IMG/VR virus record: IMGVR_UViG_3300008517_000257
Coordinates: 1 to 24,343 of that record
Origin: a virus
Length of the DNA: 24,343 bases
Strand: one strand, 5' to 3'
The position numbers were made by a program, and so were the translations under genes. The first letter of the stretch is position 1, and every line of letters begins with the position of its first letter. Shown in pieces: positions 2,647-24,343 of the stretch. The notes below the pieces were generated by a model. That model was not told where the DNA came from. It was given only the letters and a program-made list of their open reading frames with translations, and did no database searches.

Positions 2647-3168
2647 ATGACGAAGACGAACGCGAAGAAGCCAGTGTTCGACTCATGGGATGCCGTGAAC
2701 GGCGCGCTAACGCAGCTGAGCCGTCTCGAATCCGAGGTGGCAAGACTCCAGGGCCGACTCGACGGCGGCATCGCCAAGCTCCAGCAGCGGTATACCCCCG
2801 AGATCGAGCCTCTCCAGAAGGAGATCAAGGTATTGGGAGAGGCCGTGCTCGACCATGTGGACGATCACCGCGCGGACCTGAGCGAGGACGGCGACCGCCG
2901 GAGCCGATACCTTGCGGCGGGGAGGGTCGGCCTCTACCTCGCCAAGGCCCGGCTCGCGACCATGAGCAAGGTGACCTGGGACAAGGTCCTCCATCGGATC
3001 GGCGAGCTGCCAGCGCGGCTGCGCAGCAAGCTGATCCGGACGAAGGAGGCGCCGGACAAGGATGCCATCAAGGACGCCATCGAATCGGGTGAGATCTCCG
3101 AGGAGCAGCGCCGCGCGCTGGGTGTCAGCATCATCCAGGACGAAAAAGCGTTCTACGAGCTGACTTGA
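2647..3168 (+). CDS. gam: Mu Gam-like host-nuclease inhibitor
   Basis: A 173-residue protein matching the Mu Gam pattern. An N-terminal W-D-A-V-N-x-A-L helix is followed by a long coiled coil (about residues 15-65, with the heptad-like run LESEVARLQGRL), a central segment YLAAGRVGLYLAKARL, then an R-T-K-E-A-P-D-K-D-A-I block and a short strand ending GVSIIQDEKAFYELT. Gam proteins are Ku-like dimers that bind double-stranded DNA ends and block exonucleases; they are typical of transposable Mu-like phages and relatives. The length is close to that of Mu Gam. The third copy of the repeated ribosome-site element ends 10 bases before the ATG. The TGA stop lies inside the -35 box of promoter P1, so the next operon starts directly here. 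Confidence 0.85.
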   Translation: MTKTNAKKPVFDSWDAVNGALTQLSRLESEVARLQGRLDGGIAKLQQRYTPEIEPLQKEIKVLGEAVLDHVDDHRADLSEDGDRRSRYLAAGRVGLYLAKARLATMSKVTWDKVLHRIGELPARLRSKLIRTKEAPDKDAIKDAIESGEISEEQRRALGVSIIQDEKAFYELT

Positions 3169-3193
3169 ATCAGCGGCCCCCGCATGGTAGAAT
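3165..3193 (+). promoter_or_regulatory. Promoter P1 (sigma70-like, extended -10)
   Basis: TTGAAT at 3165-3170, a 17-base spacer, then TAGAAT at 3188-3193, with TG one base before the -10 box (extended -10). The boxes differ from the consensus at two positions and one position. The expected start of transcription is near 3200, giving an 80-base leader ahead of the packaging genes. The -35 box overlaps the stop codon of the gam-like gene. Confidence 0.7.
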
Positions 3194-3213
3194 CCACTAG
3201 AGAATCAGGGAAC

Positions 3214-3264
3214 GAAGCCGGGATCGCAGGCCGCTCCGCGCGGCCGGATTTCGGCTTTTCCTTT
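3214..3264 (+). terminator. Terminator-like nested hairpin in the P1 leader
   Basis: AAGCCG (3215-3220) pairs with CGGCTT (3252-3257), and inside it GGCCGC (3229-3234) pairs with GCGGCC (3240-3245) over a 5-base loop. The outer stem runs into TTTTCCTTTT. It lies between promoter P1 and the first packaging gene, so it could act as an attenuator, the end of a short leader RNA, or part of a packaging or regulatory site. The outer and inner stems are separated by unpaired bases, which makes it a weaker terminator than the P2 one. Confidence 0.5.
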
Positions 3265-3280: not shown

Positions 3281-4024
3281 ATGGGCAAGACAACCGGCGC
3301 AGTGAGCGTGATGACGACCGAGGTTCAGGTCCCCATCTTCCCGCTGCGATCGCAGTGCTCGATCTGCAAGCTCTACCGGGAGGACCCCGACCTCTTCGAG
3401 GAGGTCACCCGGCGGCTGCTCACCGGAGTCGAGCAGAAGAAGATTGTCGCCTGGCTCGCGAAGAAGGGCAAGCGGGTCACGAACAAATCGCTCTCCCGCC
3501 ATTACAACCGTCACATGCTCCCCTACTTCCAGGAGGCGCTCGAGGTGGAGCGCCGGCTTCGGGCGGAGTTCCTCGCCCTCGGCCATGAGGGGGCCGCCAC
3601 CATCGCTTCCGCCCTCGCCCGCAGCCTCGCCATGCGGGCCCTCTCGATCGTCAACGACATCGACTTCGAGAAGCTCGCCAAGGACGCTAAGCCCGACTTC
3701 CTGCGCGAGCTCAATAATCTCGCGCGGACGATAGCGCAGATTGACAATCACGCGGCCGACGCTCAGCTCAAGGAGAAGCTGGTTCAGCTCCGCGCGTTGG
3801 AGCTGGATTACAAGGCCGGGAACCTCGACCGGGTCGCCGCCCGCTGGGTCCTGATGCGGTTGAAGGATCGGCGACAGGTGGCGCTCCAGGTTATAGAGCT
3901 GCTCGATCTCCCGATGCCGAGCCAGGACATGAAGCAATTGCCAGCACCGAAGGACAGCAAGAGTGACAAGAGGCGCAGCAGAACTAAAGGAACTCGCGGA
4001 AAGAGCACTCGTAGGAAGCGCTGA
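3281..4024 (+). CDS. Probable terminase small subunit (gp27-like position)
   Basis: A 247-residue protein directly ahead of, and overlapping, the large terminase. A CSICKL pair (Cys26, Cys29) precedes an HTH-like region at about 41-79 (RRLLTGVEQKKIVAWLAKKG then VTNKSLSRHYNRH), in which the second helix would read DNA. A long helical middle and a very basic C-terminus (KSDKRRSRTKG to KSTRRKR) follow. Small terminases recognise the packaging start and usually carry an N-terminal HTH, and the gene order supports this role. I do not see a decisive match to a named family such as Mu gp27/DUF3486, so the call rests on HTH plus position. The ATG at 3281 has AGGGGG at 3269-3274. The gene's tail overlaps the terL start by about 60 bases. 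Confidence 0.6.
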   Translation: MGKTTGAVSVMTTEVQVPIFPLRSQCSICKLYREDPDLFEEVTRRLLTGVEQKKIVAWLAKKGKRVTNKSLSRHYNRHMLPYFQEALEVERRLRAEFLALGHEGAATIASALARSLAMRALSIVNDIDFEKLAKDAKPDFLRELNNLARTIAQIDNHAADAQLKEKLVQLRALELDYKAGNLDRVAARWVLMRLKDRRQVALQVIELLDLPMPSQDMKQLPAPKDSKSDKRRSRTKGTRGKSTRRKR

Positions 4025-5645
4025 GCGGGGAGATCTCCTCGGCTTCCTCCAGCAACACATCCGCCCGCGGCCGAACCAGCGCTGGACGCTGGAGCGGCAC
4101 GAGTACCTCCGGGCGATCGCCGAGGACCGCTCCCGCGTGATCGTGGTCGAGAAGGCCGCTCAGCTCGGGATCTCCACGCTATTCATCGGCGATCTCTTCC
4201 ATACGTGCCTCGCCGGCCACCACGCTGGCTACTTCCTCGACACCAGCGGCCGCATGCAGCGCTTCGTCCAGGGGAAGATAGACCCGATCATCAACGCCTC
4301 CGAGGAGCTGACCCGACATGTCGCCGCGGAGAAGGTCGCTTTCGGGCTCGACCTGCCGAAACGTCGGGGCGGCCGCCCGGCTGACAATGTCCAGGTCAAG
4401 CGGGTCGGCAGCGGCCTCGCCTACTTCCTCTCGACCTATGTGATGGGTGAGGTGAAGTTGGTTGACCTCGACATGATCGTGATGGATGAGGTGGCCGAGC
4501 TGGATGAGGAGAAGGCGGAGTTCGCGCAGGACCGCTTGCTCCATTCGGACCTCAAGCTCGAACGCTGGCTCTCGCAGCCCGACATCCCGCACATGGACAT
4601 CGACGATCTCTTCCAACGCTCCGATCAGAAGTATTGGAAGATCAGGTGCCGGCGCTGCCGGACCTGGACCGCGCTCGAGCTGGCATTCCCCGACTGCCTC
4701 GTGCAGGTGAAGGGCGAGTGGAGAATGGCGTGCCCGCGCTGCCACGCCCGGCTATATCGGGAGGATGGCGAGTGGGTGGCCGTGCACCCGGAGCGCGAGA
4801 TCTCCGGCTATCACGTCACCCAGCTCTACGGCCCGCACATCACGGCGAAGGAGATCGCCGCGCAGTGGGAGCGGGCGCAGACACGGCCCAGCCGGATGCG
4901 GCGCTTCGTGATCTCGATCCTGGGCAAGCCGCACTCGGGCGATCGGCAGCGAATCACAGACGCGCTGCTCAACGAGCGCTGTGGCGAATGGCAGATGAGT
5001 AGCGCGGGGAAGATGCAGAGGCCACCCGGCGCGCCCTATGCGGGGATCGACGTTGGGGACGTCATCCACCTGGTGATCGCGCGCTTCGGGGATGACGGGG
5101 TGGCGCGGACCGTTTGGCTCGAGGAGACCGGCGATTGGGACGTCATCGAGAGGCGGCTGCGCGACCACGGGGTGCGCATGCTCGTCATCGATGCCATGCC
5201 CGAGAAGACCAAGGCGAAGGAGCTCTGCCTCAAGCTCAAATGCGGCGCAATCATCTACACCGGAGCGAAGCGCACCAGCTATGGGATCGAGGACAAGGAG
5301 ACGAAGCCCGTCCACACCATCTCCACCAACCGGACAGAGATGCTCGACAACCTGACGGAGGCCCTCAGCGCGGGCGCGTTCTGGCTGCCGAAGCCCACAC
5401 TCCCGGAAACACAACGGGCCCGCGAGCACTTCAAGCGGCTGGTGAGGGACAGGCAGGATGACGGGACTTATCGCTACCGCCGCGGCGTGGAGAATCACTT
5501 CGGGATGGCCGCCGCGCACATGCTGATGGCGCGGGATGCCCAGGGAGCTCTCCACCTCGCGCCGGCCGGGCACTTCGAGCCAGTGAGAACCGGGCAGGAT
5601 AGCAAGCACATCGTCGGGCAGACGCACGCCCCGAGGAGATGGTAG
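3963..5645 (+). CDS. terL: Terminase large subunit, GpA-like
   Basis: A 560-residue ATP-driven DNA packaging motor with nuclease. The ATPase part shows a Walker A-like loop EKAAQLGIST at residues 63-72, of the degenerate GpA type rather than classic GKT/S, and Walker B MIVMDE at 171-176. A zinc-ribbon insert follows with four cysteines (CRRC at 229-232, CPRC at 257-260), as is common in GpA-type terminases. The C-terminal RNase H-like nuclease shows GIDVGD (Asp363), MLVIDAM (Asp410) and a late ENHFGMAAAHMLMA block. The start is GTG at 3963 with AAGGA at 3950-3954, inside the end of the small-subunit gene. The stop TAG is three bases before the portal ATG and in the same frame. Confidence 0.93.
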   Translation: MTRGAAELKELAERALVGSAERGDLLGFLQQHIRPRPNQRWTLERHEYLRAIAEDRSRVIVVEKAAQLGISTLFIGDLFHTCLAGHHAGYFLDTSGRMQRFVQGKIDPIINASEELTRHVAAEKVAFGLDLPKRRGGRPADNVQVKRVGSGLAYFLSTYVMGEVKLVDLDMIVMDEVAELDEEKAEFAQDRLLHSDLKLERWLSQPDIPHMDIDDLFQRSDQKYWKIRCRRCRTWTALELAFPDCLVQVKGEWRMACPRCHARLYREDGEWVAVHPEREISGYHVTQLYGPHITAKEIAAQWERAQTRPSRMRRFVISILGKPHSGDRQRITDALLNERCGEWQMSSAGKMQRPPGAPYAGIDVGDVIHLVIARFGDDGVARTVWLEETGDWDVIERRLRDHGVRMLVIDAMPEKTKAKELCLKLKCGAIIYTGAKRTSYGIEDKETKPVHTISTNRTEMLDNLTEALSAGAFWLPKPTLPETQRAREHFKRLVRDRQDDGTYRYRRGVENHFGMAAAHMLMARDAQGALHLAPAGHFEPVRTGQDSKHIVGQTHAPRRW

Positions 5646-5648
5646 GCC

Positions 5649-7619
5649 ATGAGCAAGCGCCAGCGACGACGATCGAAAGCGCAGAAGAGACAGGCGCCGG
5701 TACGGGCCGCTGCCGTAGCGCGCCGCCCCTCCTTCGATGAGATCGGGGGCACCGGCCTGCGAGTCTCCGGCGGGCGCGTGCTCGAAGAGTACAACCCCGA
5801 CTTGAAGGGTCCGAAGCTCTACAGCGATTATGACAAGATGCTCCGCGGCGATGGGCAGGTGCAGGCGGTCGAGCTGGTCGTCTCCTTGCCGATCGAGAGC
5901 GCGAAGTGGCGCATCGATCCCAACAAGGCAAAGGAGCCCATTGACCTTGAGATAGCGGACACGGTCGCCACCAATCTCTTCGATGGTATGACCTGCACCT
6001 GGGAGGATGTTATCAGCGAGACCGTGATGTCGGCCTTGATCGGCGTCAATGGCCTCGAGAAGGTATGGGAGCCCCGGGATGGCAGGACCTGGCTCCGGAA
6101 GCTCGCCCCGCGGCACCCGCGAACGATCCAACGCTGGATCTTCGACCACGAGGGAGGGGTGCAAGGCATCGTGCAGCGCGTTGTGGATCCCGTCACTGGT
6201 ATGGTGCAGGATAAGCCCATCGAGATCGCTCGGCTCCTGCGCTTCACCTACCGCGGGCACGGCGGCAACCCCGAGGGGCGCGGCCTGATGCGCCCGATGC
6301 GCACCCACTGGTACATCAAGCACGCCCTCTACAATATCGCCAATGTCGGGATGGAAGGTCTGTACAATCCCGCCGCCTTCGGCAAGCTCCCGGAGAACTA
6401 TAACGCCGCGGATAGAGATCAATACCTCGCGGTGCTGCGCCACTTCGGGAGGGGCGTCATGCTGCCGCCCGGCTACGAGCAGCCCGGATTCGCGGTCGGC
6501 AACCAGCGCCTGCCGAACATCGTCCAGTACATCCAGTATCACGACACCCTCATCGCCCGCAGCGCGCTGGCGCAGTTCCTCCAGCTCGGCTCCGGCGAGA
6601 CGGGCTCCTGGGCCCTCAGCGATTCCCATGTGACGCTCTTCCTCATGGCGCTCGAGCAGATCGTCAAGCGGATTGCCAGCGTCTTCGACCGCTATCTCAT
6701 CCCGGAAATGGTCGGCTACAACTATCCGGGCGTGAATCGCTTCCCCTCGCTCAAGTGGAGCCCGATCGCCCACATCATGCAGCGGGCGGCGATCCTCAAT
6801 GTTCTCCAGGGCCTGGCGAGCGCGCAGCTCATCGAGATGGACGAGGACATCGAGGGGCTCATCCGCGACATGCTCGGCCTCCCCGAGAAGCCCGAATCGG
6901 ACGAGAGCGATGTCGAGGAGACCATCCCGCAGGAGGACGCCGGGGCGAGCCGGCGCTATCGCTCGCTCAGCGCCGCCCAGCGCAAGCGGCCTCGAGACCG
7001 GAAGAAGGTCGACAGCGAGAGCGGCCGCCGCGCCGCACTCCAGGCCGAGTTCACCAAGGACATGGCGAGGGTGGTGAAGGACCAGCACGGAGCATTGATG
7101 AAGCGGCTCGACCCGATGATCGATGCCTTCCTGAAGGCCCCCCCGCTGGAGAAGGGCAAGCACCTCAGGAAGATGCAAGACGTCGCGGTGCCGAAGGTGG
7201 GGACCTATGCCGACCTGCTGACCAATTGGATGCGGCGGCTCTATACGGAGGCGAGGGACAAGGCCGCCAAGGACCTGCAGGTCGAGGTTCCCGATTCCAT
7301 CTCCAACGCGCTCCGGAGCTACATCGCCACGAAGGCGCAGGTGATCGCGCAGAAGCACGCCGAGGACCTGCGGGCCGCGGTGCTCTTCGAGGTGCTCGAG
7401 TCGACGAGGCAGGAGCTGTCCAAGGCGCAGATCGTCGCCAATGCCAAGCAGGCGGCGCGGGACAAGTCCACCATCATGCTCCAGGATGACCTCACTGATG
7501 CCGGGCGCGAGCTGGTCGCCACCCTCGAGGATATGCTCTCCGAAATGATCCCCGAGCAGGCCGCGTCGGCCGGGGGAAAAGACGCCACAGAATCGCCTGA
7601 GAGCATTTCGGGGGTGTAG
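5649..7619 (+). CDS. Portal protein (DUF935/gp29-like) with helical C-terminal extension
   Basis: A 656-residue protein. After a basic N-terminus (SKRQRRRSKAQKRQ), residues of about 45-420 follow the DUF935 portal pattern of Mu gp29: DYDKMLRGDGQVQAVE, a block SLPIESAKWRIDP, SALIGVNGLEKVWEP, TYRGHGGNPEGRGLMRP and the ring-lining region WYIKHALYNIANVGMEG. The portal forms the dodecameric entry ring of the head. From about residue 470 to the end is a long helical, charged region (SGRRAALQAEFTKDMARVV onward) that gp29 does not obviously need. It resembles the helical N-terminal half of MuF-type minor head proteins, whose conserved C-terminal domain is found as a separate gene at 7918. The ribosome site is GAGGAG at 5633-5638. 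Confidence 0.88.
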   Translation: MSKRQRRRSKAQKRQAPVRAAAVARRPSFDEIGGTGLRVSGGRVLEEYNPDLKGPKLYSDYDKMLRGDGQVQAVELVVSLPIESAKWRIDPNKAKEPIDLEIADTVATNLFDGMTCTWEDVISETVMSALIGVNGLEKVWEPRDGRTWLRKLAPRHPRTIQRWIFDHEGGVQGIVQRVVDPVTGMVQDKPIEIARLLRFTYRGHGGNPEGRGLMRPMRTHWYIKHALYNIANVGMEGLYNPAAFGKLPENYNAADRDQYLAVLRHFGRGVMLPPGYEQPGFAVGNQRLPNIVQYIQYHDTLIARSALAQFLQLGSGETGSWALSDSHVTLFLMALEQIVKRIASVFDRYLIPEMVGYNYPGVNRFPSLKWSPIAHIMQRAAILNVLQGLASAQLIEMDEDIEGLIRDMLGLPEKPESDESDVEETIPQEDAGASRRYRSLSAAQRKRPRDRKKVDSESGRRAALQAEFTKDMARVVKDQHGALMKRLDPMIDAFLKAPPLEKGKHLRKMQDVAVPKVGTYADLLTNWMRRLYTEARDKAAKDLQVEVPDSISNALRSYIATKAQVIAQKHAEDLRAAVLFEVLESTRQELSKAQIVANAKQAARDKSTIMLQDDLTDAGRELVATLEDMLSEMIPEQAASAGGKDATESPESISGV

Positions 7620-7628
7620 AGGTAGCGG

Positions 7629-7934
7629 ATGGCAGCGAACCCGCGGCAGAGGGCGTGTTACAGCGTGAAACAAGGGCAATCCTTGGCGACTCTACGCCGG
7701 CAATCCGGGCTGACCTACCGGCATCTGTCCAAAGCCGCCGGATTGAACATCGCGCGAGCCTATAGAGCCATCAACGGGAGCGGGCGCGTGAGGCAGCGGG
7801 ACGTGCGGGTGCTGCGCCAGGCGATGGTCGACGTGCTGCGCCGAAAGCGCAGTTCCGATCCCGAGCTGCTCTGCCATGTCCAGGAGCGCGCGGTGGCTTT
7901 TCTGAGGGAGAGGTTGAGTGCCCGAGCTTCCTAA
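7629..7934 (+). CDS. Small HTH-like DNA-binding protein between portal and MuF
   Basis: A 101-residue basic protein. Residues of about 20-65 look like a Cro/XRE- or LacI-type helix-turn-helix: SLATLRRQSGLTYRHLSKAA, then GLNIARAYRAINGSGRVRQR and a following helix DVRVLRQAMVDVLRRK. The ATG has GAGG at 7619-7622. The gene overlaps the MuF gene by 17 bases and is in the same frame as the portal, from which it is separated by TAG AGG TAG CGG. Such a protein is unexpected between portal and minor head genes. It could regulate late genes, bind packaged DNA, or be a recent insertion. The HTH call is by eye and moderate. Confidence 0.6.
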   Translation: MAANPRQRACYSVKQGQSLATLRRQSGLTYRHLSKAAGLNIARAYRAINGSGRVRQRDVRVLRQAMVDVLRRKRSSDPELLCHVQERAVAFLRERLSARAS

Positions 7935-8409
7935 CATAATGAACCTGGCGCTCAGCATGACGGCCCAGGTGCTGATCACCCAGCTCGAGAACGCGGGCGG
8001 CGTGGATGCCGCCCCGGCCGACGAGTTCCCGAACTTCGAGATCATCGAGGTACTGGATGAGGATAGCTGCGATCTCTGCCGCGACATGGATGGCATGATC
8101 ATCTCCCGTGAGGACCCGGACTTCGAGCTGGTGAAGGACCCCGCCCATATCAACTGCCGCCGCACCCTGGCGGCGGTGAGCAAGGACGAAATTGGACCGG
8201 ACGGCAAGCCCCTGGAGCCGGACTATGAGCGGCCCTCACAGGAGATGATCGACGAGTTCGGCCACTTCATGCGGATCCCGGGGAAATACAAGCCCCTGAA
8301 AGTCCCCGCCCAGCCCGAGGGGCGCGACTTCGTCGCCCGGCCCTACGTGGACAAGCACGGCAAGAGGAGGGTGCGGATCGACTGGCGGGTGTCGGAATAT
8401 GCTCTCTGA
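7918..8409 (+). CDS. MuF-domain minor head protein (stand-alone C-terminal domain)
   Basis: A 163-residue protein carrying the core of the phage Mu protein F-like domain: EVLDEDSCDLCRDMDGMII followed by DPAHINCRRTLAAV. Cys51, Cys54, His77 and Cys80 form the usual CxxC...HxxC pattern. MuF proteins are minor head components near the portal, and some are injected with the DNA. Full-length Mu gpF is over 400 residues, so this is only the C-terminal domain. The missing helical part may be the extension on the portal protein. The start is GTG at 7918 with AGGGAG at 7905-7910, inside the HTH gene. The stop is 3 bases before promoter P2. Confidence 0.85.
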   Translation: MPELPNIMNLALSMTAQVLITQLENAGGVDAAPADEFPNFEIIEVLDEDSCDLCRDMDGMIISREDPDFELVKDPAHINCRRTLAAVSKDEIGPDGKPLEPDYERPSQEMIDEFGHFMRIPGKYKPLKVPAQPEGRDFVARPYVDKHGKRRVRIDWRVSEYAL

Positions 8410-8412
8410 CAC

Positions 8413-8441
8413 TTGACGGACTGTCGCTTCCGTGGTATCTT
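8413..8441 (+). promoter_or_regulatory. Promoter P2 (sigma70-like, extended -10)
   Basis: TTGACG at 8413-8418, a 17-base spacer, then TATCTT at 8436-8441 preceded by TGG (extended -10). It matches P1 in spacing and in the TGG before the -10 box, and like P1 it sits right at the end of the preceding gene. Transcription should start near 8448, leaving about 118 bases of leader before the capsid gene. Confidence 0.7.
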
Positions 8442-8473
8442 CTCAATGACAACATAGACTGAATGGCGCCGTA

Positions 8474-8553
8474 GGCGGAGAAGCACCCGCCGAGGTGTAG
8501 CAACAAAAGCCATCGCACGAGCCCTTCGGGGCCGGCGGTGGCTTTTCGCTTTT
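8474..8553 (+). terminator. Structured P2 leader: small hairpin, then strong terminator-like hairpin
   Basis: A first hairpin pairs GGCGG (8474-8478) with CCGCC (8487-8491). A second, long hairpin pairs 8505-8516 (AAAAGCCATCGC) with 8535-8546 over 12 base pairs including one T-G wobble. It is topped by GCCC-TTCG-GGGC (8521-8532), a C(UUCG)G tetraloop, one of the most stable RNA loops. The stem ends in TTTT and is followed by CGCTTTTG. This is a textbook intrinsic terminator shape, placed 13 bases upstream of the capsid gene and about 60 bases after the P2 start site. It may attenuate capsid expression or end a short RNA of about 105 bases. Confidence 0.7.
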
Positions 8554-8565
8554 GAGGATGGTGTC

Positions 8566-10569
8566 ATGCCGAAGACAAAGCCGAGACAGGGAGTCGAGTT
8601 CCTCATCCCCCTCGCCACTCGCCGTGCCGCGACGGAGGACGAGGGCGGGGGTGATTGGGTGAAGGTGCTGCCGATCGGAAGCTGGGCGAGCCATCACTTC
8701 TGGCCGACGGAAGGCATCTATGAGATCACCGCTGAGAACCTCGCCGCGATGGAGGCCAACTTCCGGGCTGACATCCCTCCTATCAAGATCGCGGTCAACC
8801 AGAACCACAGCCGCGGGCCATCAGTCGGCTGGATCGAAGACCTGAAGGCCGAGGCGGACGGGTTGCGGGCGCGAGTCAAGTGGACTCCGCTCGGCGATGA
8901 GCTGCTGACCCAAGACGCTTTCCGCTATGTCAGCGCCGAGTGGTATGACTCGGCAACGCCCTACATCGAGAAGACGTCCGGGCGGAAGATCGCCTGGGTG
9001 TTCGAGGGACTCGCCGTCACCAACAATCCCTTCTTCGTGGAGCTGCCCGGCCTCCAGCCCGCAGCCGCCGAGGAGGACGGGACATTGGTGTATACCGGCC
9101 CGGCCGCAGCGCCGGACAAAGGAGAAGATGCAATGCCCAAGCTACAGGACGCACCACCTCAACCCAAGGAAGGCAGCGATCCGGGCCGGACGCCGGAGGA
9201 CGTAGAAGCGCTCCGCGCTGAGCGCGACAGGCTCGCCGCGGACAAGGCCGTACTCGAGGCGCAGGCCGCGGAGAGGAAGGCAGCGGAGCAGCTCGAGAAG
9301 CTGACCGCCCGCTTCGCCGCCGTGAAGACGAAGGATGGGCAGCTCGCCGAGGCTCATGCCAAGCGGCTCGCCACAGTCGCCATCGAGGTCCCCGAGGACA
9401 AGCGTGAGGAGCACGTCACCGCCACCATCGAGGCTCTCTCGACGGGCATCGTGCCGGCCGGAGAGATCGGAGGAATGGGCGCCCAGATCACCAGCGATGG
9501 CATCAGCCCCGCGCTCGTCGCCACGGCTCGCCGCCTTGGGCTCGACCCGGCCTTCGTCTACGCCGCCGCCAACCGCGGCCCCGGAGGCGCTCTCGATATC
9601 GAAGGAGCCCGCGCTGGCGTCGGCCGGATCTCCCCGCTGGCCGCCAGCGTCGAGGTGCCCAGCCTTTCGTATCAGGAGACGATGCTCCTCATCGAGGGGT
9701 TCTTCGTCGCCGGCTACGAGAGCACCCCGGCCCTCACGACTCAGTTCGCCAATCGGGTCACCTCCAACCAGCGCACCATTGACTACAGCGCGCTCGGCGC
9801 GCCGCCCCGCATGAGGGAGTGGCTCGACGAGATCCAGGGAGCGGTGCTCAACACGCTCGCCGAGTTCCCGGTCACCGTGAGGGATTGGGAGGCGACCGTC
9901 GAGATCCGGGTGAGCGAGCTGCAGGCCGACAAGCTCGGCCAGTATGCCATGCGGATCCAGCAGATGGGCGCCTTCGCCAAGCAGCATCCCGACGAGCTGC
10001 TCGCCGCCCTGATCGCCGCCGCCGAGACCACGCTCTGCTATGACGGCCAGTACCTCTGTGACATCGATCACTCCGAGGGGAGTTCCGGCACGCAGAGCAA
10101 CTTCCTCACGACCGGCTACGATGACGACGACATCGCCGACATCAGCCTCTCGCTGGGAGCCGCGGTCGCCGCCTTCCACCGATTCAAGGATGATCGGGGT
10201 AAGTACCTTCGCATCGGGTCTCGGCCGAATGCTGTCTATGATGTGATCTGCCGGCCCGAGGTGCTCAACCTCTTCGATCAGATCGCCACCTCCCAGCGGA
10301 TCTCCGGCAGTGACAACTCGTGGAAGGGGCGCATTCGCCCGATGGCGCTCCCGGAGCTGACGGTCGCCAGCGACTTCTACGTCGCTTACACCGAAGGCCC
10401 CGTCAAGCCGTTCATCGTCCAGTACCAGAAGGAGCCGAGCGCCCTGAAGAGCCTCGGCCCGGACTCGGAGCACGCGAAGAAGACCGGCCGCTCCTGGTTC
10501 TCCACGCAGGGGAACTACACCGTGGCGCCGGGAGATTGGCGCTACCTCATCAAGCTCCAGAAGGCGTAA
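8566..10569 (+). CDS. Fused capsid maturation protease, scaffold and major capsid protein (Mu I + T type)
   Basis: A 667-residue polyprotein. Residues of about 30-165 follow the Mu I-like head protease: WVKVLPIGSW, MEANFRADIPPIKIAVNQNH, VGWIEDLKAEADGLRARV, FRYVSAEWY and GLAVTNNPFF. His81 and Ser123 sit where candidate catalytic residues are expected. Residues 190-260 form a Glu/Ala/Arg-rich coiled coil, a scaffold-like segment. From about 350 to the end it is a Mu gpT-like major capsid protein: RTIDYSALGAPPRMREWLDE, the DKLGQYAMRIQQMG block, HPDELLAAL and LCYDGQYLCDIDHSEG. In Mu these are separate genes. An in-frame internal start at 9133 with a strong ribosome site would yield the scaffold-capsid part alone. 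The ATG at 8566 has GAGGA at 8554-8558. Confidence 0.9.
   Translation: MPKTKPRQGVEFLIPLATRRAATEDEGGGDWVKVLPIGSWASHHFWPTEGIYEITAENLAAMEANFRADIPPIKIAVNQNHSRGPSVGWIEDLKAEADGLRARVKWTPLGDELLTQDAFRYVSAEWYDSATPYIEKTSGRKIAWVFEGLAVTNNPFFVELPGLQPAAAEEDGTLVYTGPAAAPDKGEDAMPKLQDAPPQPKEGSDPGRTPEDVEALRAERDRLAADKAVLEAQAAERKAAEQLEKLTARFAAVKTKDGQLAEAHAKRLATVAIEVPEDKREEHVTATIEALSTGIVPAGEIGGMGAQITSDGISPALVATARRLGLDPAFVYAAANRGPGGALDIEGARAGVGRISPLAASVEVPSLSYQETMLLIEGFFVAGYESTPALTTQFANRVTSNQRTIDYSALGAPPRMREWLDEIQGAVLNTLAEFPVTVRDWEATVEIRVSELQADKLGQYAMRIQQMGAFAKQHPDELLAALIAAAETTLCYDGQYLCDIDHSEGSSGTQSNFLTTGYDDDDIADISLSLGAAVAAFHRFKDDRGKYLRIGSRPNAVYDVICRPEVLNLFDQIATSQRISGSDNSWKGRIRPMALPELTVASDFYVAYTEGPVKPFIVQYQKEPSALKSLGPDSEHAKKTGRSWFSTQGNYTVAPGDWRYLIKLQKA
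9118..9135 (+). promoter_or_regulatory. Internal ribosome site and ATG within the capsid fusion gene
   Basis: AAAGGAG (9118-9124) lies 8 bases before ATG at 9133-9135, in frame with the long gene at codon 190, exactly at the junction of the protease and coiled-coil parts. It is one of the stronger ribosome sites in the window. Nested in-frame starts that make scaffold separately from protease are known in phages, for example lambda Nu3 inside C and Mu Z inside I. Confidence 0.75.
9133..10569 (+). CDS. Nested product: scaffold-major capsid protein without the protease
   Basis: This is the predicted 478-residue product of the internal start, beginning MPKLQDAPPQPKEGS and continuing in frame to the end of the long gene. 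It would contain the coiled-coil scaffold segment and the gpT-like capsid domain but not the protease. Making it in excess over the full-length fusion would solve the stoichiometry problem of a protease tied one-to-one to the capsid subunit. By analogy with HK97-type heads, the coiled-coil part would be removed by the protease during maturation. The start codon is supported by sequence; production and cleavage are inferred. Confidence 0.6.
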   Translation: MPKLQDAPPQPKEGSDPGRTPEDVEALRAERDRLAADKAVLEAQAAERKAAEQLEKLTARFAAVKTKDGQLAEAHAKRLATVAIEVPEDKREEHVTATIEALSTGIVPAGEIGGMGAQITSDGISPALVATARRLGLDPAFVYAAANRGPGGALDIEGARAGVGRISPLAASVEVPSLSYQETMLLIEGFFVAGYESTPALTTQFANRVTSNQRTIDYSALGAPPRMREWLDEIQGAVLNTLAEFPVTVRDWEATVEIRVSELQADKLGQYAMRIQQMGAFAKQHPDELLAALIAAAETTLCYDGQYLCDIDHSEGSSGTQSNFLTTGYDDDDIADISLSLGAAVAAFHRFKDDRGKYLRIGSRPNAVYDVICRPEVLNLFDQIATSQRISGSDNSWKGRIRPMALPELTVASDFYVAYTEGPVKPFIVQYQKEPSALKSLGPDSEHAKKTGRSWFSTQGNYTVAPGDWRYLIKLQKA

Positions 10570-10581
10570 CAAGGGACGTCC

Positions 10582-10652
10582 GGCGAGGGGGGCATTAGTC
10601 CCCCTCGCCTCGCCGCACCCGGGGCCTGGCCCCGAAAAACCAGCCGCGCTGG
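10582..10652 (+). terminator. Three hairpins in the gap after the capsid gene
   Basis: First, GGCGAGGGGG (10582-10591) pairs perfectly with CCCCCTCGCC (10600-10609) over an 8-base loop. Second, CGGGGC (10620-10625) pairs with GCCCCG (10629-10634). Third, CCAGC (10640-10644) pairs with GCTGG (10648-10652). None is followed by a T-run, so a classic intrinsic terminator is not shown; partial termination or protection of the abundant capsid mRNA from 3' decay is equally likely. The rest of the gap 10570-10691 holds only the ribosome site of the next gene, and I see no promoter. Confidence 0.6.
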
Positions 10653-10691
10653 CCCTCTATCTGAGCACCAGGCGCGCGAAAGGAAAGCCGA

Positions 10692-11504
10692 ATGGCCGAC
10701 GTGTCCGCAAACCGCGATCCGCAGGTAAAGGAGGGCAAGCTGCTCTCCATCCTGGTTGAGGACAATGTTCACATCTATCGGGGCGTTGGCGTCTGCGCCA
10801 ATGCCGCCGGCTACGCCACCCCGATGGGCGATGACTCCGGTTCCGTCTTCATCGGCGTCGCCATCGAGGAATGCGACAACACCCTGACCGGCCACACCCA
10901 GGGGGGCAAGCGCGTCCGCGTGCACATGCCCGGCAATGCCGTCTTCACCAAGGCGACGGCCGCCCAGACCGACCTCGGCCTGCCCGTCTATGCCGGCTAT
11001 GATGGCACCGTCATCGTTGCCGGCTCGAGTTCACACAAGGTCTTCGTGGGGACGATCGTCGAGATTATCTCCAGCTCCCTCGCCCGCGTCCAGCTCAAGC
11101 TCGCTCAGAACGTCCCGGATAGTGCGAGCTACTCCTATGGGATGATCTGCATCCCGATCGTGCTCGCCACCATCGCCGATGGCGATATCGTCACCGACCT
11201 TCCGCTCGACTTCGTGGGTGAGCTGATCTCGGTGAACGCCGTCGCCAAGGTCGTCGCGAGCACCGCTGACAAGCTCTCCACCCTCCACCTGGAGATCGGA
11301 GCGGTGGCCGTCACTGGCGGCGTCGTCGCCCTCACCACCGCCGGCCTCGATACCCTCGGCAAGGTCGTCGCTGGCTCCGCCATCAGCGGCGCCAACGCCT
11401 TCGCCGCGACCGACACCCTCTCGGTGGTAGCTGCGAGCACCACCACCTTCATCGAAGGTGAGATCGTGCTGGTCATCACCTACCGCTCCCTGCTTCAGGC
11501 ATAG
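10692..11504 (+). CDS. Capsid decoration-like protein
   Basis: A 270-residue beta-rich protein with no membrane segment. The N-terminal half (DPQVKEGKLLSILVEDNVHI, ATPMGDDSGSVFIGVAIEECDN, GGKRVRVHMPGNAVF, LGLPVYAGYDGTVIV and VGTIVEII) follows the pattern of small DUF2190-like or decoration proteins found just after phage capsid genes: a barrel with a G-V-A strand and a V-G-x-V/I strand. The C-terminal half (about 150-270) adds a Val/Ala/Thr-rich beta domain with repeats of V-V-A-S-T/A-S-T, possibly a surface-exposed Ig-like or adhesive part. The likely role is stabilising or decorating the head. The ribosome site is AAAGGA at 10679-10684. It ends with tandem stops TAG TGA. Confidence 0.6.
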   Translation: MADVSANRDPQVKEGKLLSILVEDNVHIYRGVGVCANAAGYATPMGDDSGSVFIGVAIEECDNTLTGHTQGGKRVRVHMPGNAVFTKATAAQTDLGLPVYAGYDGTVIVAGSSSHKVFVGTIVEIISSSLARVQLKLAQNVPDSASYSYGMICIPIVLATIADGDIVTDLPLDFVGELISVNAVAKVVASTADKLSTLHLEIGAVAVTGGVVALTTAGLDTLGKVVAGSAISGANAFAATDTLSVVAASTTTFIEGEIVLVITYRSLLQA

Positions 11505-11519
11505 TGAAGGAGTGATCTG

Positions 11520-11810
11520 ATGCCCGCCAAGAAGAAGGGCAAGAAGAAGGCCGCGAAGAGGGCGTCCCACACCCGCGGGCGCGCTCCCTCGACGTCTCCG
11601 GCCGCACCCGCGGCCCCACCACCCGAGACGACTCCCGAGAGGAAGGCCGGCGAGCGCGTCGCCTCTGTGCGCAGCCGGCGCGCGGCATTCAACCGTGCCG
11701 GCCTGAGCTTCTCCGCCGATATCCCGGTCACCGTCCGCGAGAAGGAGATCGGCGCCGACCGCTTCGAGCGGATCATCAACGAGCCGATGCTCCGCTGCGA
11801 CATCCAGTAG
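11520..11810 (+). CDS. Mu gp35/HI1506-like head protein
   Basis: A 96-residue protein in two parts. Residues 1-50 are a Lys/Arg-rich then Pro/Ala-rich disordered tail (PAKKKGKKKAAKRASHTRGR). Residues 51-96 read RRAAFNRAGLSFSADIPV, then EIGADRFERIINEPMLRCDI. This fits the small domain of Mu gp35/HI1506-type proteins, with an R-R-A-G-x-x-F strand, a preferred Leu/Ile-x-x-x-Q/R-F helix and a final D/E-P-x-L-x-V. It occupies the expected place between capsid/decoration and gp36. AAGGAG at 11507-11512 precedes the ATG by 7 bases. Confidence 0.55.
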   Translation: MPAKKKGKKKAAKRASHTRGRAPSTSPAAPAAPPPETTPERKAGERVASVRSRRAAFNRAGLSFSADIPVTVREKEIGADRFERIINEPMLRCDIQ

Positions 11811-11830
11811 ACACAATGCCCAGACAGGTA

Positions 11831-11873
11831 TGCCCGGGCGGCGAGTTGCGATCCCGGCTTAGCCGCCCGGGCA
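11831..11873. repeat. Perfect 12-base inverted repeat in an intergenic gap
   Basis: TGCCCGGGCGGC at 11831-11842 is the exact reverse complement of GCCGCCCGGGCA at 11862-11873, with a 19-base loop. It fills most of the 84-base gap between the gp35-like and gp36-like genes. No T-run follows on either strand, so it is not a standard terminator. It could be an mRNA-stabilising hairpin, a partial terminator or a protein-binding operator. Confidence 0.8.
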
Positions 11874-11894
11874 CCCTGGGGCCTGAGGACCTCG

Positions 11895-12365
11895 ATGGCA
11901 TATTGCACGGTAGATGACGTTCAGGCGGTCATACCCACCACGATCTGGGACAAGGATACCTCGACGAATCCCAGCGCGGCAACGGTGACCGATGACTACA
12001 TCCCCGACATCGACGCGGAGATCGACGCCAAGCTTGCCCGGCGCTACCAGGTTCCCATCACTGCGACCGAGGCGCTGAAGGTCGTCAACGGCATCGCCTC
12101 GCGCATGACGGCGATCCGCGTCTGGGGGATCGCCTTCACCGGGCAGACCGGAGACACGACTCACCCGACCGATTGGGATCAGGGAGGGCGCAAGCTCCTC
12201 GATGCCATCGTCGCCGAGAAGGCCGACCTCACTGACGCGGGCAGCATCGGCGCATCATCCGCCAGCGAGCCCGGCGCCCCCTCGATGACTATGCGCACGA
12301 TCGAAGAGGATCCGCTGCAGGATACTGATATGAGGCCTGCGTTCAGCGGGAACGACAAATTCTGA
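11895..12365 (+). CDS. Mu gp36-like head-tail adaptor (DUF1320)
   Basis: A 156-residue protein starting MAYCTVDDVQAVIP, the usual start of gp36/DUF1320 adaptors, followed by a D-Y-I-P-D-I-D-A-E-I-D-A-K-L helix, RRYQVPI and the A-L-K-V-V-N-G-I-A-S helix, with GGRKLLDAIVAEKADL near residue 95-110. Such proteins join the portal/neck to the tail. The last 45 residues are a low-complexity acidic tail. GAGGA at 11885-11889 is 5 bases from the ATG. The stop overlaps the next ATG (TGATG). Confidence 0.82.
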   Translation: MAYCTVDDVQAVIPTTIWDKDTSTNPSAATVTDDYIPDIDAEIDAKLARRYQVPITATEALKVVNGIASRMTAIRVWGIAFTGQTGDTTHPTDWDQGGRKLLDAIVAEKADLTDAGSIGASSASEPGAPSMTMRTIEEDPLQDTDMRPAFSGNDKF

Positions 12366-24234: not shown

Positions 24235-24343
24235 GTGCTGACCGCGCGGCAGCGCATTGAATTGTGGTGGGAAGCGCACAAGAACGGACTAACAAGCCTT
24301 GACTACGAGACACTCATGGGCTATACTACCACTGGAAGATCGA
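24235..24343 (+). CDS. Possible start of another gene (partial)
   Basis: From GTG 24235 (or 24232) the frame is open to the end of the window and reads VLTARQRIELWWEAHKNGLT then SLDYETLMGYTTTGRS, which looks more like real protein than noise (paired Trp, amphipathic helix). There is no clear ribosome site, and the same bases contain promoter P3, so the reading may be chance. The stretch 24145-24234 shows nothing else that I can support. Confidence 0.25.
   Translation, partial: MLTARQRIELWWEAHKNGLTSLDYETLMGYTTTGRS
24299..24327 (+). promoter_or_regulatory. Promoter P3 (sigma70-like)
   Basis: TTGACT at 24299-24304, 17-base spacer, TATACT at 24322-24327; each box is one base from consensus. It is the best promoter match in the window and points off the right edge. 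It shares the 17-base spacing of P1 and P2 but lacks their TG extension one base before the -10 box. The expected transcript starts near 24334. Confidence 0.6.

Follow-up and report, generated by a model that had tools for sequence, protein, structure and literature searches.

In an uncultured Mu-like phage, two late operons each begin with a promoter that is followed, before the first gene, by an RNA hairpin and T-tract of the intrinsic terminator type, an arrangement that is conserved in related phages. The window analysed here, meaning the whole stretch of DNA, is a viral record 24,343 bases long, in which the two cassettes span positions 3165–3264 (P1, ahead of the terminase operon) and 8413–8565 (the P2 leader region, ahead of the capsid gene). 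Late control by activators (Mor, C) has its textbook example in Mu-like phages. Our analysis inclines, by a little, towards a different reading for P1 and P2, as late-gene attenuators that polymerase would pass with the help of a phage antitermination factor loaded at the promoter, in which case the late genes are probably switched on when polymerase runs past a stop signal, and not by an activator protein of the Mu type. In the open-access literature searched, no earlier account of Mu-like phages with this layout was found.

The gene order of the window is Mu-like. Gam (2647–3168) lies upstream of P1, and the first gene after P1 (3281–4024, plus strand), which occupies a small-terminase-like position and has no family match, is followed by TerL (3963–5645; phrog_675, E = 9e-91), the portal gene (5649–7619), an XRE-type helix-turn-helix gene (7629–7934, plus strand) at the end of the P1 operon and an F-like gene (7918–8409) directly before P2. 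The P2 promoter and leader fill the 157-base gap ahead of the first gene of the capsid operon (8566–10569, plus strand), which encodes a Mu gpI-like protease fused to a gpT-like major head protein (PF10123, E = 1e-9; PF10124, E = 1.5e-30; phrog_371). A genome scan with this capsid protein returned a single remote match (26%) and no host. A third sigma70-like promoter, TTGACT-17-TATACT (24299–24327, sense strand, 10/12, without TG), sits 16 bases before the contig end.

P2 is a sigma70-like promoter (8413–8441, plus strand; TTGACG-17-TGGTATCTT, score 9/12), comprising a -35 element TTGACG at 8413–8418, a C-rich 17-base spacer with TGG at its end and a -10 element TATCTT at 8436–8441. It is the only sense-strand promoter match in positions 5000–12000, where shuffled sequences give a mean of 0.7 for both strands together. 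With a start predicted at about 8448, the leader (8448–8565) would be 118 nt long, and none of 200 shuffles folds as stably (dG -53.9, z = -4.4). This leader holds two boxes, ACTGAA and GGCGCC (8458–8471, plus strand), which are common to four P2 leaders at a spacing of 1–9; in the form A(C/T)TGAA-N1..9-GGC(A/G)CC they are found in all four, with 5 further occurrences in 1.0 Mb. Hairpin I (8466–8498, plus strand; 5 + 5 pairs with an internal loop, dG -17.9, z = -3.6) is present at P2 only, with none at P1, and has counterparts of other sequence in relatives L002, L003 and L062. Next comes the putative intrinsic terminator (8505–8546, plus strand), an AAAAGCC...GGCTTTT hairpin with a C(UUCG)G cap and a dG of about -28 (z = -5.0 against shuffles, 8506–8552). 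Its T-tract (8543–8553, plus strand; TTTTCGCTTTT, TTTT-CGC-TTTT) has a T-score of 3.53, and the terminator lies 20 bases ahead of the gpI/gpT protease-capsid gene. The tail is also T-rich in L003 and L062, and is weaker in L002.

P1 (3165–3193, plus strand) combines TTGAAT at 3165–3170, 17 bases, TGG and TAGAAT at 3188–3193. A hairpin at about 3214–3258 (z = -3.0 against shuffles) is followed by TTTTCCTTTTG, and together hairpin and T-tract form a putative intrinsic terminator at 3214–3264 (plus strand; GAAGCCGGG...CGGCTTTTCCTTTT). A -10-like GAGAAT at 3200–3205 (plus strand), at about +1 of P1, is a candidate sigma-dependent pause element; three of the four P1 sequences have such an element between +1 and +3 (GAGAAT in the window, GACAAT in L002, AAGAAT in L062/L009; not in L011), although a score as good is reached at about 5% of random positions. 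At P2 the element is absent from three of four promoters, only the window having one, TAGACT at +8. A small ORF from an ATG in the P1 -10 region was rejected, as it gives unrelated peptides in shifted frames between relatives and has no ribosome site.

Much of this had been anticipated by a first-pass annotation made from the window's letters alone, which proposed P2 with a terminator before the capsid gene, a 118-base leader with two hairpins, and P1 as a promoter that shares the spacing of P2 and TGG before the -10; all of these are borne out by the scores, z-values and T-tracts given above. The same annotation described the P2 terminator as a 12-pair stem with a C(UUCG)G-capped inner stem. 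Its pairs and cap hold, but the stem has two bulges: a 12-pair outer stem is followed by a 5' bulged A, 2 pairs, a second bulged A and a 4-pair inner stem.

When both strands of the window were scanned for terminators (dG <= -20 and T-score >= 3.5), the only sense-strand sites to pass were those with T-tracts at 3256 and 8543. Each of these strong terminators directly follows one of two TG-extended promoters, the only ones scored on the sense strand of the window, and the chance of finding two terminators within 120 bases behind two promoters is about 5e-5. A search of Rfam for leader, attenuator or sRNA families gave no match at gathering; the single sRNA hit, on the minus strand, fell below the threshold.

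Close relatives were collected from IMG/VR by capsid, portal and TerL searches (L002, L003, L004/L062, L008, L009, L011). Promoter, leader and terminator are present at P2 in all four phages that cover the site (the window, L002, L003, L062), and promoter and terminator at P1 in all six covering contigs (the window, L002, L062, L008, L009, L011), whose P1 hairpins make up four distinct sequences. Every P1 and P2 copy retains the -35 element (matching consensus at 4–6 of 6 positions), the spacing of 17 bases and TGG-TA, with the P2 -10 element at 7179 in L002, 6256 in L003 and 6559 in L062. T-tracts are kept in seven of eight distinct cassettes, in DNA of 60–65% GC, and are weak in L011. In L002 a different gene lies upstream of P1, yet the P1 cassette is retained; thus the P1 terminator belongs with the downstream gene.

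Beyond these phages, a scan for the layout in about 0.86 Mb (57 Mu-like loci) returned these cassettes and three minus-strand sites, in L021, L026 and L048. Two of them (L021 3817 and L026 4094, both minus), lying on the opposite strand to the late genes, have a promoter and behind it a transcript of about 70 nt with a conserved GGGTGTNATCCCGG...CTCAGGCTTTTTT hairpin, an arrangement resembling a small-RNA gene. No such cassette was found in L012, a more distant Mu-like phage (41% TerL identity), so the trait is, as far as seen, limited to this clade. A search of phage records with the leader DNA gave no match, and promoter-pattern matches in L065, L067, L068, L070–L074 and L076–L078 were set aside as having no shared gene context and being at chance level. 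In L003, the leader hairpin GGCGGTCC...GGTCCGCC (about 6268–6300) recurs twice 3' of the terminator (6420–6490) as GCGGCGGACCAACCGGACCGCCGCC, a possible long-range pairing that is absent in the window.

Between relatives the transcript sequence, including loops and single strands, is not conserved, while pairing and position are kept. MAFFT misplaced the arms of whole hairpins, and the arms were therefore aligned by hand before stem pairs were counted. Over the four distinct P1 hairpin sequences, 97% of cells are paired and two-sided changes occur at 4 of 17 pairs, a result that 3 of 500 shuffles equal. For the outer stem at P2, pairing holds in 46 of 48 cells, with two-sided changes at 7 of 12 positions, mostly via L002. 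Given hand alignments and few phages, covariation support for the stems is good, not overwhelming; at P2 it leans on one phage. The first-pass annotation had named relatives that lack the hairpin, or that show no compensatory changes, as evidence against its reading; the relatives carry the hairpin and compensatory changes, and its suggestion of an attenuator or antiterminated leader is still the best reading of cassettes conserved in this way. A DNA-level inverted repeat, serving as a packaging site or operator, was rejected: P2 is not at the terminase gene, and pairing is kept while the sequence changes. All eight P1 and P2 hairpins have a break between outer and inner stem, with a 5'-side excess in six, an interrupted shape that could be a protein-binding feature.

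The link between the two cassettes was also examined in their promoters. The P1 and P2 spacers are closer to each other than are orthologous control segments (p = 0.03 over 14 bases, p = 0.002 with TGG), while the flanks are not. A search with the P2 pattern identified an unrelated phage of 40 kb, in which five of six GTGG-TATACT/TACAAT-type promoters have no hairpin. With TGG at six of its promoters, this phage marks TGG as a generic extended -10 feature, and since it shows TGG and GC-rich spacers to be common in promoters, the spacer resemblance is weak evidence. The earlier proposal that P1 and P2 are related stands in so far as there is a second cassette of the same design, but TGG is weakened as a sign of that relationship. 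The sixth promoter (L069, 1016–1090) lies directly before the major head gene (phrog_9953), with a spacer equal to that of L062 P2 at 16 of 17 positions and a hairpin at the transcript start that lacks a T-tract. This favours either a site shared by capsid promoters or a 5' hairpin with a stabilising role; we therefore hold the terminator reading with lower confidence. On the minus strand of L079/L080, five promoters (17529, 26559, 30108, 31000 and 32310 in joined coordinates) share the form TAGACA/TTGACA-17-GTGG-TACAAT/TATACT, which is a promoter signature of that phage or its host.

In the attenuator reading, P1 and P2 could probably be used unaided by the main RNA polymerase of the host. 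With an intrinsic terminator about 15–60 nt after the P1 start and about 60–200 nt after the P2 start, most transcripts would end before the packaging and capsid genes. A phage factor from the early region would join polymerase at the promoter or shortly beyond it, and polymerase so modified would ignore the terminator, giving late expression as with Q of lambda or 21, AlpA and GafZ. The order promoter, terminator, gene at two late operons implies that the terminator is regulated or leaky, and termination may be partial, since the T-tracts are interrupted (TTTT-CN-TTTT).

As for the factor itself, no match to the Q-type antiterminator families PF06530 or PF03589 was found in the window and 8 contigs, all of which are without the full early region. 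Among themselves, Q proteins are not similar in sequence (PMC6606751, PMC11150451). The helix-turn-helix gene at 7629–7934 is kept in L002, L003 and L062, an odd spot for a regulator in a head operon, and its predicted structure (pLDDT 78) has XRE/Cro-type folds as its nearest PDB matches, all weak (E 0.07 and up); it is a possible regulator. It was rejected as a Q protein on account of its XRE fold and its position downstream of P1, from which it follows that it is not the factor that first opens P1. Another candidate, L009:347-790, was dropped because its structure model was too poor (pLDDT 45). A bolder version of the antitermination reading, which we regard as improbable, is that this Mu-like lineage swapped Mor/C activation for antitermination at two terminator-guarded late promoters, and that the interrupted-stem terminator hairpins are RNA operators for a phage factor, perhaps a structural protein; if so, capsid or terminase supply would be coupled to late transcription.

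The main rival explanation, which we think unlikely, is that the hairpins stabilise strongly made late mRNAs at the 5' end or enhance their expression, with termination weak and unregulated. Such 5' stem-loops are known from the ompA and T7 gene 10 mRNAs. The P1 hairpin is very near the 5' end, a ribosome-binding site follows directly after the hairpin, and the unrelated 40-kb phage sets a hairpin without T-tract behind a P2-like promoter before its major capsid gene; but a stabiliser would not need a T-tract, and one follows the stem in seven of eight cassettes despite the high GC content. It is distinctly less probable, in our estimate, that attenuation is constitutive and partial, or that each hairpin is the terminator of the upstream operon, trimming transcripts of the gam region or P1 operon and only dampening the local promoter, with no dedicated factor. 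Each hairpin is also at an operon border, and the P2 hairpins of the window and L003 are bidirectional by sequence, yet in every relative the promoter comes first at both sites, against the usual order of terminator then promoter, and L002 keeps its P1 cassette behind an unrelated gene.

Two further alternatives place the function in the RNA. The leader box and hairpin I of P2 might form a put-like or nut-like element that, alone or with an RNA-binding phage protein, carries polymerase past the terminator. The conserved extra hairpin and the two boxes, kept in all four leaders, mean that P2 may use an RNA-borne element, and put likewise has two stem-loops and follows its promoter directly (PMC9378689). 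On the other side, P1 is without such an element and has too little RNA before its terminator, the second P2 stem is itself a terminator with a T-tract, unlike in put, and Rfam gave no match, so that we consider this explanation rather improbable. Finally, P2 and P1 might mainly yield short RNAs of about 105 and 60 nt with a role in trans. Small-RNA genes have this layout of promoter and terminator with no ORF, but only pairing and position are conserved, not loop or single-stranded sequence, both cassettes lie exactly before late operons, and again there is no Rfam match; we judge this very improbable.

Compared with known systems, HK022 put, which the first-pass annotation had offered as a model, is similar to P2 as a structured RNA right after a phage promoter with two stem-loops (PMC9378689). 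It is not supported as a general model: put has about 70 nt with two stem-loops before the first terminator, an arrangement seen at neither P1 nor P2, where the second P2 stem is the terminator and P1 has a single stem. P1, with only 10–25 nt ahead of its terminator stem, cannot be put-like because no second stem precedes the terminator. The antitermination reading has closer parallels in pR'-tR' of lambda and phage 21 with Q (PMC6606751), which share the sigma70 promoter, the promoter-proximal intrinsic terminator before a late operon, a -10-like element just after the start (here a candidate one, at P1 in three of four sequences) and possibly a spacer element. Here, in contrast, two promoters serve terminase/portal and capsid in a Mu-like genome, no Q homologue was found in the contigs examined and most P2 promoters are without the -10-like element. 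AlpA of Pseudomonas aeruginosa likewise has two target promoters; there a -35/-10 spacer element, of which P1 and P2 may have a counterpart, is combined with a required -10-like sequence and a weak terminator 26 or 54 nt downstream of the start (PMC7969949, PMC9371919). AlpA differs in controlling chromosomal lysis genes of its host; these phages do not share its GGGACG element, and no AlpA-like protein was identified in them. GafZ of the Caulobacter gene transfer agent (PMC11150451) would resemble our case in serving the structural genes of a phage-like particle by antitermination from a promoter-spacer element; it differs in having its terminator after the first gene, as 150-bp repeats, and in needing GafY and IHF.

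Within Mu itself, P2 lies before an I-like gene, in the syntenic position of P_I, whereas the Mu late promoters have non-consensus -10 and -35 elements and need activator C (PMC4461284). P1 and P2 differ from them in a good -35 and extended -10, in a terminator after the promoter and in that these incomplete contigs hold no match to the Mor/C family (PF08765). If the attenuator reading is true, activator control and antitermination would be interchangeable late switches in phages of the same genome plan, and the terminator-guarded head operons would point to a new antitermination factor open to discovery and use.
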